NCBI GenBank assembly: GCA_945861855.1
Contig: CAMAWG010000009.1
Coordinates: 1-54,891 of the forward strand
From: Rhodoplanes serenus
GTDB taxonomy: Bacteria; Pseudomonadota; Alphaproteobacteria; Rhizobiales; Xanthobacteraceae
Direction: 5' to 3'
Length of the DNA: 54,891 nt
Under the pieces are notes generated by a model, which ran no database searches, was not told the DNA's origin, and saw only the letters and a program-made list of their open reading frames with translations. Both the position numbers and the translations under genes were made by a program. This document shows positions 5,403 to 8,983 of this stretch, one piece after another. Numbering within the stretch: the stretch's first letter is position 1; the number at the start of each line of letters is the position of its first letter.

Positions 5403-6251
5403 CTAATATCCGAGGATAGCTTTGGCGGCGTCGCCGACGGCTTCGACATTGTCGCCGGCATCGAGGAAGGCGACGATGCGGCACGGGCAGCTTTCGAGTC
5501 CTTCGTAGCGCCAGGGGAAGGCGCCGATGATGGCGCGTTTGCCGAGCATCATCTCGATGTCGCCGCCGAGGTTCTCGGCGTGCAGCAGCCCCTCCTGGAA
5601 CGCCCAGTTGTGGAACGGGAACACGTCGGCTGAAACCTTCCGTCCCGATTTCTTGTGGGTGTATTCGAATGTGCCGAAGAACTCGCCCGGCGTCTTGCCG
5701 TGCTTTTTGGTGAACTCCTCGGCAAGGTCCGGACGCATGTAACGGATCGAGGTGTTCATGGCGTGGTCGCAGGACCCGGTGTCCATGCCCCACCATTTGA
5801 TCTTCTTCTTGAACATCCAATGCAGCGTCTCGAGGCTCGGACCCGGGTGGTAGCAGAAGTATCGCACCAGATCCTGCTGCGGCCGGCCCTCGTAGTGTTT
5901 GTGCCAGCCGGTGTGCAGGATGAGAATGTCGCCCTCGCGGATGTCGGCGCCCGCGCTTTCGATCATCTGCGGCGTGATGACCGCCCAGTCGTGCATGTGC
6001 CTGGAGATGTCCACCACCACGCCGCGGTTGCAGAGATAATCGAGCGGCAGATGCGCCATGTCGCCGTTGCGGTTGTCGGTCGCATGCATCGCGCCGTCGA
6101 AATGCGTGCCGACGTGGAGCGCGGTGTCGATGCGCTGGGCGACGATCCGCACGGTCTGCAAATTCTGCGCGTAGTACATCTTGTTGCCGGCGTAGCCCAC
6201 CCAGCCGGGGGTGTGCACGTTCATGACGTGAGACATGTCGATGATTTTCAT
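5403..6251 (-). CDS. Cyclase-family metal hydrolase (kynurenine-formamidase-like fold)
   Basis: This 282-residue protein belongs to the 'putative cyclase' family, which includes bacterial kynurenine formamidase and isatin hydrolase. The hallmark metal-binding motif appears as HVGTHFDGAMH around residues 46-56, close to the family pattern HxGTHxDxPxH, and a further PFHNWAFQEGL segment lies near the C-terminus. Such enzymes hydrolyse amides or lactams of aromatic compounds. It is the first gene of the minus-strand catabolic unit, with a GGGGAGCC ribosome-binding site. Its upstream region was split by the transposon-like element at 6338-6688, so its native promoter may have been altered or separated from it. 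Confidence 0.8.
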   Translation of the reverse strand: MKIIDMSHVMNVHTPGWVGYAGNKMYYAQNLQTVRIVAQRIDTALHVGTHFDGAMHATDNRNGDMAHLPLDYLCNRGVVVDISRHMHDWAVITPQMIESAGADIREGDILILHTGWHKHYEGRPQQDLVRYFCYHPGPSLETLHWMFKKKIKWWGMDTGSCDHAMNTSIRYMRPDLAEEFTKKHGKTPGEFFGTFEYTHKKSGRKVSADVFPFHNWAFQEGLLHAENLGGDIEMMLGKRAIIGAFPWRYEGLESCPCRIVAFLDAGDNVEAVGDAAKAILGY

Positions 6252-6329
6252 GGCGGCTCCCCGGCATTGCGCAGCTTCGGTCCCTTGGCTTGTATGTTCT
6301 CAGGGTGCGGACTACCGTTCAAGCGAGGC

Positions 6330-6696
6330 AACGCGCTGGTAGCGTCTCAGTTTGAAATTCGTGGGACTTTTTCTTGTGCGGCCCCGAGTAGGGGGCGCCG
6401 CCCAAACGGAGGGAGCAAGAATGATCTTCACCCACTTGGCCCGACTACTATCCATCGCAGCCCTTTTGCTTGGCCTATTGCATGTCCTACTTGGGCTTGC
6501 CATCGCGACGGAATTTATAGGGCCATATCAAGCCGCCTTGGCTCGCTACACAACCAAATCGTCATCGGGACAGGTGATCAACGAAGGGGCTTACATCGTT
6601 CTCTTTGCCATAGCTCTAGGCACTCTGGCCGAGATTAGTTTTTCAATGCGCAGGCGGTCGATCTAAAATTTCAAACTGAGACATGACCAACGCGCT
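6330..6696. mobile_element. 351-bp mini-transposon with passenger gene (element 6338-6688, flanked by 8-bp duplications)
   Basis: Both ends read GGTnnn followed by GTCTCAGTTTGAAATT in inverted orientation (left 6338-6359; right arm is its complement, 6667-6688). That gives 22-base termini that differ only at positions 4-6. Directly outside lie identical octamers AACGCGCT (6330-6337 and 6689-6696), a clean target-site duplication. Between the ends is a single small gene and no transposase. The interior is visibly less GC-rich than its surroundings. Terminal GG and 8-bp duplications occur in families such as IS1595 and ISL3, so a non-autonomous relative mobilised in trans is the likely explanation. 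The family assignment is inference. Confidence 0.85.
6421..6666 (+). CDS. Small two-helix membrane protein carried as transposon passenger
   Basis: This 81-residue protein starts at ATG 6421 behind a good ribosome-binding site (GGAGGGAGCAAG). An earlier in-frame start at 6352 would begin inside the left terminal repeat and is less likely. It has a hydrophobic N-terminal helix (about residues 8-30, rich in Leu/Ala), a polar loop with the segment RYTTKSSSGQVINEG, a second helix (about 56-72) and a basic end, MRRRSI. Its stop codon ends at the last base before the right inverted repeat, so the gene fills the element. I do not recognise a characterised family. An inner-membrane location is inferred; no function can be assigned. 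Confidence 0.7.
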   Translation: MIFTHLARLLSIAALLLGLLHVLLGLAIATEFIGPYQAALARYTTKSSSGQVINEGAYIVLFAIALGTLAEISFSMRRRSI

Positions 6697-6712
6697 AGCA
6701 GGGCTGGCCTCC

Positions 6713-8983
6713 ATGAACGTCAGGACGCTGATCGGCCAGTCCGTGCACCGGTCCGAGGATTTCCGGTTTCTCAAGGGCACGGGCCGCTTCGTCGACGATC
6801 TCAAGCGCGAGGGGATGCTGCATGCCGTGGTGCTGCGCAGCCCCGTGGCGCATGGCCGCATCCGCGGAATCGACGCGTCGGCCGCGCGAGCCATGCCGGG
6901 CGTGCATGCGGTCATGACGGCTGCGGACATCGGAAACGTCCCGGTCATCCCGTTGCGGCTCGCGAACCTGCCGGAGTTTAGGGGCTACCTCCAGCCGGTG
7001 ATCGCCGGCGACAAGGTGCGCTACGTCGGCGAGCCGATCGCGGTGGTGGTCGCGGAGACGCAAGGCCTGGCCGAGGACGCGCTCGAAGCCATTGCGGTGG
7101 ATATCGAGCGGCTTCCGGCGCTGCCGGATCGCCACGCCGCGGCCGCGGACAAATCGCTTCTGTTCGAGGCGGCCGGCAGCAACCGCGCGGTGCGTTACAC
7201 GGCGTCTTTCGGCGATGCGGATGCCGCTTTTGCGAAGGCTGAATACACGCGGAAGGAAAAGTTCGCCTGCCACCGGCTGACCGGCCTGCCGCTGGAGACA
7301 CGGGGGCAGATTTCCGAATGGGACGTAGCGAAAAAGCGGCTCACGGTGTTCGGCGCGACCAAGGTGCTGTTCTTCAACCGCCGGACGCTCGCGCCGATGC
7401 TGGGCGTCACCGAGAGCGACATCGACATGATCGAGGTCGATGTCGGCGGCGGCTTCGGCGTGAAGGGCGAGTTCTATCCCGAGGATTTTTTGATCCCGTT
7501 CGCGGCGCGGCTCGTGGGCCGCCCGGTGAAGTGGATCGAGGATCGCCGCGAGCATCTCACCGCCACCAACCATTCGCGCGAGGTCGATTGCGAGCTTGAG
7601 ATCGCCTGCACGCGCGACGGCACGATCCTCGGCATGCGCGGGCATATTTTTTCGGACATGGGCGCTTACATCCGCACCAACGGCGGGGTGGTGCCGGCCA
7701 AGGCGGCGCAGTTCCTGCCGGGGCCGTATCGTATCCGCGACATCGCGCTGACGGTGGAGGCCTTTGTCACCAGCAAGACGCCGGTCGGTACGCTCCGCGC
7801 GCCGGGGCGGTTCGAGGCGAATTTCTTCCGCGAAAGGCTACTCGACATCGTGGCGGCCGATCTCGGTCTCGATCCGATGGAGTTCCGCCGGAAAAATCTC
7901 ATTACGGAGGCCGAACTGCCGTTTCACACCGGCAAACTCGTGCCCTACGAGCCGGAAACCGACTTCGACACCGGCGATTATCATGTCGCCTTCGAGCGCG
8001 CGGTGGCCGAGATCGGCTGGGACAAGAACAAATCGATGCAGGGCAAGCTGATCGGCGGACGCCTGCATGGGTTCGCCGCCACGCCGTTCGTCGAGAGCGG
8101 GGGCTCCGGCAAGGAGAATTCGCGGCTGGTCATCGAGAAAGACGGCAGCGTCAGCGTCTATGTCGGTTCGTCGGTGCTGGGGCAGGGGCTGGAGACGACC
8201 TTGGCGCAGGTCGCCGCCGACACGCTGAAGCTGCCGTTCGAGAAGATCAAGATTCTGCACGGCTCGACCACCTACGTCCGCGAGGGCTTCGGCACCTTTG
8301 CGTCGCGCTCGATGGTGGTCGGCGGCTGCGCGGTGATGGACGGCTGCAACAACCTGCTCGCCGCCATTCGCGCGGCGGCGACGGAGCGGTTCGGATTTCC
8401 CAACGAGGAGATCGAGATTTCCGGCGGCGTGGTGACGGCGGGCGGCAAGCGCGCGGGCCTTGGCGAATTCGCCGGCCTCGAAGTGGAGGGCACCTTCGCC
8501 ACCACGACCCGCACCTACAGCTACGGCGCGCATGCCTGCCATGTCGCGGTCGATCCGCGCACCGGCCACGTCGATATCCTCGACTATGTGGCGATCGAGG
8601 ACGTCGGCGTGGCGATCAACCCGCACATCGTCCACGGTCAGGCGATCGGCGCGCTGGTGCAGGGGCTCGGTGGCGTGTTCCTCGACCAGATCCTTTACGA
8701 CCAGGACGCGCAGATGCTCAACGCCTCGCTCGCCGACTATCTCGTGCCGCTGGCGACCGACTTCTCCAATGTGCGCGCGATCACCATGGAACTGCGCCGC
8801 TCCAAGACCAATCCGCTCGGCGCCAAGGGCGCGGGCGAGGGCGGCATGGTGGCGGTGGCGGCGACCACGGCCAATGCGGTGGCGGCGGCGCTGAAGCCGC
8901 TCGGCATCGAACTGCGCGATCTGCCGCTGTCGCCCGCGAGGCTCTGGGGCCTTGTGAATGGTGGCGGGGCCGCTAAGAAATAG
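6713..8983 (+). CDS. Xanthine-dehydrogenase-family molybdopterin-binding large subunit (orphan)
   Basis: The protein is 756 residues from ATG 6713. An ATG at 6683 lies inside the transposon's terminal repeat, has no ribosome-binding site and adds ten residues partly coded by the target duplication, so 6713 is taken as native. It should bind Mo-cofactor and hydroxylate an N-heterocyclic or aromatic substrate. Visible are VDVGGGFGVKGEF (cofactor loop), TLRAPGRFEANF, and the catalytic glutamate motif AKGAGEGGM near the C-terminus. It lacks the AYRCSFR signature of true CO dehydrogenase. No [2Fe-2S] or FAD subunit is adjacent on this strand; the nearest are at 10798-12134 on the other strand. It is followed 40 bases later by a UbiD gene. 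Confidence 0.88.
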   Translation: MNVRTLIGQSVHRSEDFRFLKGTGRFVDDLKREGMLHAVVLRSPVAHGRIRGIDASAARAMPGVHAVMTAADIGNVPVIPLRLANLPEFRGYLQPVIAGDKVRYVGEPIAVVVAETQGLAEDALEAIAVDIERLPALPDRHAAAADKSLLFEAAGSNRAVRYTASFGDADAAFAKAEYTRKEKFACHRLTGLPLETRGQISEWDVAKKRLTVFGATKVLFFNRRTLAPMLGVTESDIDMIEVDVGGGFGVKGEFYPEDFLIPFAARLVGRPVKWIEDRREHLTATNHSREVDCELEIACTRDGTILGMRGHIFSDMGAYIRTNGGVVPAKAAQFLPGPYRIRDIALTVEAFVTSKTPVGTLRAPGRFEANFFRERLLDIVAADLGLDPMEFRRKNLITEAELPFHTGKLVPYEPETDFDTGDYHVAFERAVAEIGWDKNKSMQGKLIGGRLHGFAATPFVESGGSGKENSRLVIEKDGSVSVYVGSSVLGQGLETTLAQVAADTLKLPFEKIKILHGSTTYVREGFGTFASRSMVVGGCAVMDGCNNLLAAIRAAATERFGFPNEEIEISGGVVTAGGKRAGLGEFAGLEVEGTFATTTRTYSYGAHACHVAVDPRTGHVDILDYVAIEDVGVAINPHIVHGQAIGALVQGLGGVFLDQILYDQDAQMLNASLADYLVPLATDFSNVRAITMELRRSKTNPLGAKGAGEGGMVAVAATTANAVAAALKPLGIELRDLPLSPARLWGLVNGGGAAKK

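Follow-up and report, generated by a model that had tools for sequence, protein, structure and literature searches.

A 351-bp element in Rhodoplanes serenus carrying one small predicted membrane-protein gene between the ends of an IS1-like transposon group

A 54,891-nucleotide stretch of the Rhodoplanes serenus genome (the window) contains a 351-bp element, at positions 6338-6688, that is very probably a mobile insertion cassette, a non-autonomous kind of transposon, for which an IS1-like transposase would act in trans. It is a new case fitting the mobile insertion cassettes and is attached to an IS1-like, cargo-carrying transposon group.

Structure of the element and its insertion site

The element has a G+C content of 0.52, compared to 0.66 for the whole window, and is bounded by 22-bp inverted ends (GGTnnnGTCTCAGTTTGAAATT) that differ from each other at 3 of 22 positions, all inside the nnn triplet. 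Identical copies of the octamer AACGCGCT (8/8) flank it. The original prediction had described these termini and octamers, and both are seen directly in the sequence, as follows.

6330-6337, no strand: left target-site duplication AACGCGCT, read directly and identical to 6689-6696
6338-6359, plus strand: left terminal inverted repeat GGTAGCGTCTCAGTTTGAAATT, read directly, with the same pattern in relatives
6360-6394, minus strand: possible relic of a transposase 3′ end, suggested by gapped similarity to transposase-end interiors
6395-6420, plus strand: leader of the passenger gene with the ribosome-binding site GGAGG (6408-6412), from homology to a Bradyrhizobium chromosomal relative
6421-6666, plus strand: passenger open-reading frame for an 81-aa predicted membrane protein (P0001), from homologues and hydropathy
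6667-6688, minus strand: right terminal inverted repeat GGTCATGTCTCAGTTTGAAATT (reverse strand, 6688-6667), read directly
6689-6696, no strand: right target-site duplication AACGCGCT, read directly

The nnn triplets of the two window ends are AGC and CAT and differ from AGT, the commonest in the group, so these ends may not be fresh. A tblastn search gave no transposase match inside the element, where P0001 is the supported reading frame, and a promoter and terminator scan of 6200-6760 gave one promoter and one terminator match, where shuffled sequence gave 0.3 and 0.7 on average.

The element sits between the divergent genes 5403-6251 (minus strand) and about 6713-8983 (plus strand). Ten other genomes of the genus were compared at this site with a joined-flank query, and a complete orthologous intergenic region was present in five of them at 79-92% identity. 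In all five of these comparable congeners, the stretch fetched contains neither the element nor an exact copy of its 12-base end core. The intergenic gap has diverged among the congeners and the exact octamer AACGCGCT is not preserved there, so that the empty site anticipated in close relatives was recovered as regards the missing element but not as a single intact octamer. Just left of the insertion, a block at 6292-6326 (GTATGTTCTCAGGGTGCGGACTACCGTTCAAGCGA) has hardly changed in four of the five congeners and is partly kept in the fifth, unlike the rest of the gap, and is possibly a promoter or operator. On the other side, the right terminal repeat supplies an ATG at 6683 that is in frame with the downstream reading frame (6683-8983), and the likely native ATG of the downstream gene follows at 6713.

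An IS1-like transposon group with the same ends

The 22-base end pattern was found in 29 of 391 genomes of the family and in 22 of 397 genomes of the order (two overlapping samples), and a reversed-pattern control gave 0 in both. Loci were fetched and numbered (L), 30 of them around end matches in other genomes of the family. Together with the window and two loci of the source genome (L015 and L016), these 33 loci yielded 17 end pairs, with the duplication not used as a criterion; 11 pairs had a perfect 8-bp duplication, two matched at 7/8 and four at 3-6/8. Only a single end was found at 15 of the 30 family loci, also in a relaxed search, some of these loci being cut by contig ends. The two-ended family loci are mostly 2.6-4.7 kb long with an 8-bp duplication, usually encode an IS1-like transposase and vary in cargo. 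Transposase-bearing relatives span about 2.6-4.7 kb (L070, 2655 bp; L054, 2805; L074, 3116; L052, 3927; L057, 4691), and the 19 defined end bases of the window element recur identically on such elements (L070, L052, L074 and others). The original prediction of a bounded mobile element is borne out by the ends, the perfect duplication and these other elements with the same ends, and the full-length relative that it called for, with the same ends and an apparently full transposase, exists, for example L070.

Four relatives on named plasmids were fetched, and three of them combine two ends and a perfect 8-bp duplication with a gene annotated 'IS1 family transposase': one from Acidiphilium (2634 bp), one from Hoeflea (4224 bp) and one from Mesorhizobium loti (3370 bp, ends GGTAGTGGGTCAGTTTGAAATT). 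The fourth, from Methylocapsa, has two end-like sequences and lacks a perfect duplication. Across the searches made, the group is found mainly in Alphaproteobacteria.

The transposase of the group is a single reading frame of about 285-324 aa as called. All 12 members examined matched the NCBIfam IS1 model. In the two that were tabulated it outscored the other NCBIfam models, with 67 and 64 bits, below its cut-off of 100. PF03400 was matched at E 0.01 by 11 of the 12 aligned members, with scores of 26.4 for L015, above the cut-off of 24.1, and 21.4 for L070, below it. All 12 rows of the alignment share D65, D137 and E200, which probably form the catalytic triad. In full-length relatives the transposase gene typically runs into one end, and in several members the terminal repeat itself encodes its C-terminal EISN and stop; some passenger genes adjoin the opposite end. 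Target duplications of the IS1 family are 8-9 bp long, and the 8-bp duplication of this group falls within that length.

The source assembly is a draft, about 85% complete, in which we found no transposase with GAAATT-type ends. Its sole related transposase, 68% identical to that of L070 over residues 1-288, belongs to a 4371-bp element on contig C19 (36229-40599; L015, 730-5100) with perfect 22-bp ends (...GATTGT, unlike the window ends), the duplication GAAAGGGA and an IS1-like transposase. This element looks autonomous in sequence, and its cargo comprises an RmrA-type protein (HTH/M78), the 209-aa partner of that protein, and a GPKGERRP protein of 76 aa. A lone end (GGTAGTGTCTCAGTTTGATTGT) with a small reading frame beside it lies on contig C92 (L016, 1157-1178), where a convincing partner end is absent. 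Ten other congeners were searched for a related transposase; one distant full-length match was found in one genome (G080), fragments only in three, and none in six. The claim that the element had moved recently by a transposase acting in trans therefore stands in part: mobilisation in trans by an IS1-like transposase of the group is most likely, but the only related transposase in the draft serves different ends, and the donor may be encoded in sequence that the draft lacks, belong to a different strain, or have been lost.

The IS1595 family, which has GG... ends and an 8-bp duplication, was considered as a source for these reasons. Three IS1595-type transposase matches occur in the genome (contigs C8, C165 and C14; two open frames and one with stops), and window-type ends with up to 3 mismatches are absent from these contigs, which led us to reject this source. 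The C19 transposase scored 67 bits with the IS1 model versus 19.4 bits with IS1595. The title of Siguier et al. 2009 reportedly links IS1595 to IS1.

Cargo differs widely within the group. The transposases of L052 and L057 are 96% identical, yet their cargo is largely different; the cargo common to both is a small GPKGEKRP-type protein. Such small basic proteins, (M)PRGPKGEKRPADVIG...AAAVALGRMGGKARA..., mostly of 61-98 aa, occur in 13 of the 15 elements clustered (L015, L052, L053, L054, L057, L058, L061, L068, L070, L074, L075, L077 and L078), mostly toward the transposase-distal side, and are missing from L056 and the window element; they may be an accessory factor conserved across the group. 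L015 and L068 carry an HTH and M78-peptidase protein with a partner of about 200 aa ahead of it and PADLOC RmrA matches, and other relatives carry what we take to be RelE/YafQ/DinJ-like and other toxin-antitoxin-like pairs. In the full elements L061 and L057, cargo reads outward into the transposase-distal end. At L056 (556-6652), 6.1 kb lie between such ends, one of them divergent, with a 6/8 duplication; this stretch holds a 1405-aa protein that gave no PADLOC match and that, judged by eye, presumably starts like a TIR domain and continues as an NTPase.

Short relatives recur. When 84 loci (30 from the family, 52 from viral contigs, plus the window and L015) were scanned under a rule demanding at least a partly matching duplication, 31 elements emerged. 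Of these, 27 have an 8/8 duplication, a share that the rule partly builds in, and 13 have a nearly full-length transposase match. Twelve of the 31 rows are shorter than 1 kb and have no complete transposase: L064 (245 bp), the window element (351), L139, L149 and L155 (396 each), L123 (454), L073 (554), L115 (592), L160 (656), L120 (819), L078 (843, from the same genus as the window) and L152 (895). These represent nine distinct sites, since L123 (3863-4316), L139 (179-574), L149 (1197-1592) and L155 (7317-7712) have common flanks and are one insertion site on four viral contigs, where the 454- and 396-bp versions reflect an internal length change with the transposase relic kept. Besides the window element, four distinct mini-element sites (L078, L123/L139, L115 and L120) keep transposase C-terminal sequence. 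Because transposase-less short relatives recur in this way, the window element is one case of a recurring form, and it is the cleanest one-gene case found. Two others hold mainly one small gene each and are less perfect: L064 (10227-10471) has a gene of about 66 aa with its stop inside the terminal repeat and a 6/8 duplication, and L073 (580-1133) has a perfect left end, a degenerate right end (13/22), an 8/8 duplication and a gene for a small membrane protein with three segments, directed outward to the perfect end, with an extra 53-aa reading frame beside it.

The passenger gene P0001

The reading frame of P0001 is intact, with GGAGG located 8 nt upstream of its ATG and its TAA stop (6664-6666) adjoining the right end at 6667, in agreement with the single 81-residue gene, ribosome-binding site and abutting stop of the original prediction. 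A longer in-frame start exists (TTG at 6352); homologues favour the ATG at 6421. By hydropathy alone, P0001 is hydrophobic from about residue 2 to 30 and from about 52 to 70, which suggests a membrane hairpin, and the same rule finds only the first of these stretches in the homologue L017.

A single-sequence search matched P0001 in 10 of 397 genomes of the order, and a profile in 4 of 391 of the family, both counts including the source genome and one of the latter four matches being partial and borderline. Further homologues, among the matches listed, lie on a Rhizobium plasmid and a Bradyrhizobium lablabi contig. The inner reading frame is thus conserved in other genomes, as had been proposed: 11 homologues align with P0001 over its length, with M1, F3, G56, G67, L69 and I72 invariant, and the sequences place P0001 in what appears to be a family of small membrane proteins scattered through Rhizobiales. 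No pair of such ends was found at the 15 homologue loci (the 11 aligned, L018 and L111-L113), three of which have an isolated single 10-of-12 core match. For P0001, Pfam and NCBIfam gave nothing above a cut-off, PHROGs and PADLOC gave no match, and the family profile found nothing below E 0.17 in 87 related loci. An origin as a phage gene was also considered and rejected, as phage records gave no match and none of 12 family members had a PHROG.

Third codon positions differ most between P0001 and the homologues L017 (52 of 109 differences), L080 (52/100) and L081 (55/119), which indicates past purifying selection. dS is saturated in these three comparisons and is 2.18 against L082, and dN/dS against the frameshifted Bradyrhizobium copy, taken in two pieces, is about 0.47 and 0.10. 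These values speak for past constraint only, and purifying selection since insertion was rejected as a reading of them. Expression of P0001, and any function it has, are putative.

Origin of the cassette and its place among known elements

The 40-bp interior of the left end was compared, with gaps, to the interiors of 11 transposase ends, and the mean score was 27.5 where the null gave 21.3 (z = 3.4; 4 of 2000 letter shuffles); the other three end comparisons in this test were null. The 11 came from 16 other elements, of which the test omitted L015, with its differing ends, and L057, L068, L107 and L108, in which the right end is no transposase stop. A second gapped test, on the 4 of 8 previously unused viral-contig transposase ends that could be placed, gave z = 2.4 (25 of 2000 dinucleotide shuffles). 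Without gaps, 38 positions gave 6-14 matches where chance gives about 10, and nothing was clear. One frame of the relic region reads xGPHKKKSHE, which may be compared with RGPYKK...AEISN of the transposase family. The relic signal at the left end is thus a modest one. Homology to the frame-broken chromosomal Bradyrhizobium copy begins at 6395, where the relic ends, and extends to the end of the coding region, and the similarity of the left end together with this starting point suggests a cassette built as an end with relic, a gene with its leader, and an end.

Resemblance of the left end to a transposase 3′ end suggests that the cassette arose by internal deletion, which is the most likely origin on this evidence. 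A larger element would have lost everything between the last transposase codons and the leader of a distal passenger gene, leaving a terminal repeat with about 35 bp of relic, the small membrane-protein gene with its leader and ribosome-binding site, and the other terminal repeat. A related transposase supplied in trans would then recognise these ends and insert the cassette between the divergent genes, duplicating 8 bp, with P0001 travelling as cargo and no sign of transposition machinery or an addiction pair.

A single capture event, in which two ends came to surround a host gene by aberrant or one-ended transposition and not by deletion, is possible but somewhat doubtful. It would fit the homology of the gene leader to the chromosomal copy from 6395, the homologues without ends, the lack of any larger element carrying P0001 among those found, and a relic invisible in the ungapped comparison. 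Against capture, the left end resembles transposase 3′ ends once gaps are allowed, other mini-elements retain clear transposase remnants, and the outward-reading cargo of L061 and L057 sits at the transposase-distal end.

It is very unlikely that P0001 is itself a functional part of the element, whether addiction-like, immunity-related or a transposition helper, with the mini-element selected as a selfish module. An intact frame that occupies the whole element and can be aligned along its length with 11 homologues, the third-position excess with its implied past selection, and the small membrane protein lying likewise against one end of L073 all speak for such a role, but a partner gene is absent, the family and defence searches above gave nothing beyond a cut-off, the profile found nothing below E 0.17 in the 87 loci, and no end pair accompanies the 15 homologue loci. 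The idea of an addiction-like module has no support for the same reasons: there is no partner gene, no family match, and the sampled homologues are not bounded by such ends. Chance repeats around an ordinary, immobile chromosomal gene are scarcely credible, for although the element has one copy only in its own genome, the 16-base core GTCTCAGTTTGAAATT (up to 3 mismatches) is expected 0.04 times per shuffled window and was observed twice, both exact, the identical 19 defined bases bound transposase-bearing elements elsewhere, and the element is missing in all five comparable congeners.

The closest known class is that of the mobile insertion cassettes (MICs), of which MIC231 is an example. The window element has ends in common with a transposase-encoding element and a passenger coding sequence replacing the transposase, together with an 8/8 duplication and an element-free site in five of five comparable congeners, where the exact octamer is not preserved. 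As excerpted, PMC5444012 describes MICs and MITEs as non-autonomous derivatives formed by internal deletion and told apart by coding sequence, and a qnrS2 cassette of the Aeromonas plasmid pAC3 bracketed by 22-bp inverted repeats; MIC mobility depends on an active transposase, according to the text seen of PMC6542083. The window element differs in that the transposase of its group is IS1-like, its passenger has no assigned function and its movement in trans is putative. One-gene elements without a transposase had been called unusual, whereas such cargo elements are this known class. No second copy of the cassette was found: it is single in its own genome, and no copy occurred in the 391 family genomes, the 397 order genomes or among the matches listed.

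Other classes fit less well. MITEs are short, transposase-less and intact in their inverted ends, and so is the window element. A MITE, for example MITEAba12 (PMC6382973, in part), has no passenger gene by the excerpted account of PMC5444012, whereas the window element has an intact, conserved 81-aa reading frame. Transporter ISs, for which PMC3129680 (in the portion available) cites Siguier et al. 2009 on the IS1-IS1595 group, are IS copies with passenger genes unrelated to transposition, as are the full relatives here; these differ in fitting IS1 models best, under the NCBIfam IS1 cut-off in the two tabulated, and the window element differs in having no transposase. Tn3-family transposons with toxin-antitoxin passengers are known (PMC7157771, in part), and some full relatives here likewise carry toxin-antitoxin-like pairs, but their transposase is another one, and the window element, with a single supported reading frame and no known family match, holds no such pair. 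No description of the IS1-like cargo group was found in the literature searched, which lay mostly outside subscription journals.

More speculatively, and with rather low probability, the group may be a cassette-dispersal system in which larger transposons with cargo give rise, time and again, to units of less than 1 kb that retain only the ends and one small gene. If so, single host genes, some of them for small envelope proteins or proteins of no known kind lying against an end, would gain a mobility of their own throughout Alphaproteobacteria, in a parallel to integron cassettes that is driven by a transposase. The window element offers a base-pair view of how little extra sequence can make one small gene mobile, and it points to an IS1-like transposon group, mostly of 2.6-4.7 kb, that carries and swaps toxin-antitoxin-like and defence-like cargo in rhizobia and their relatives.
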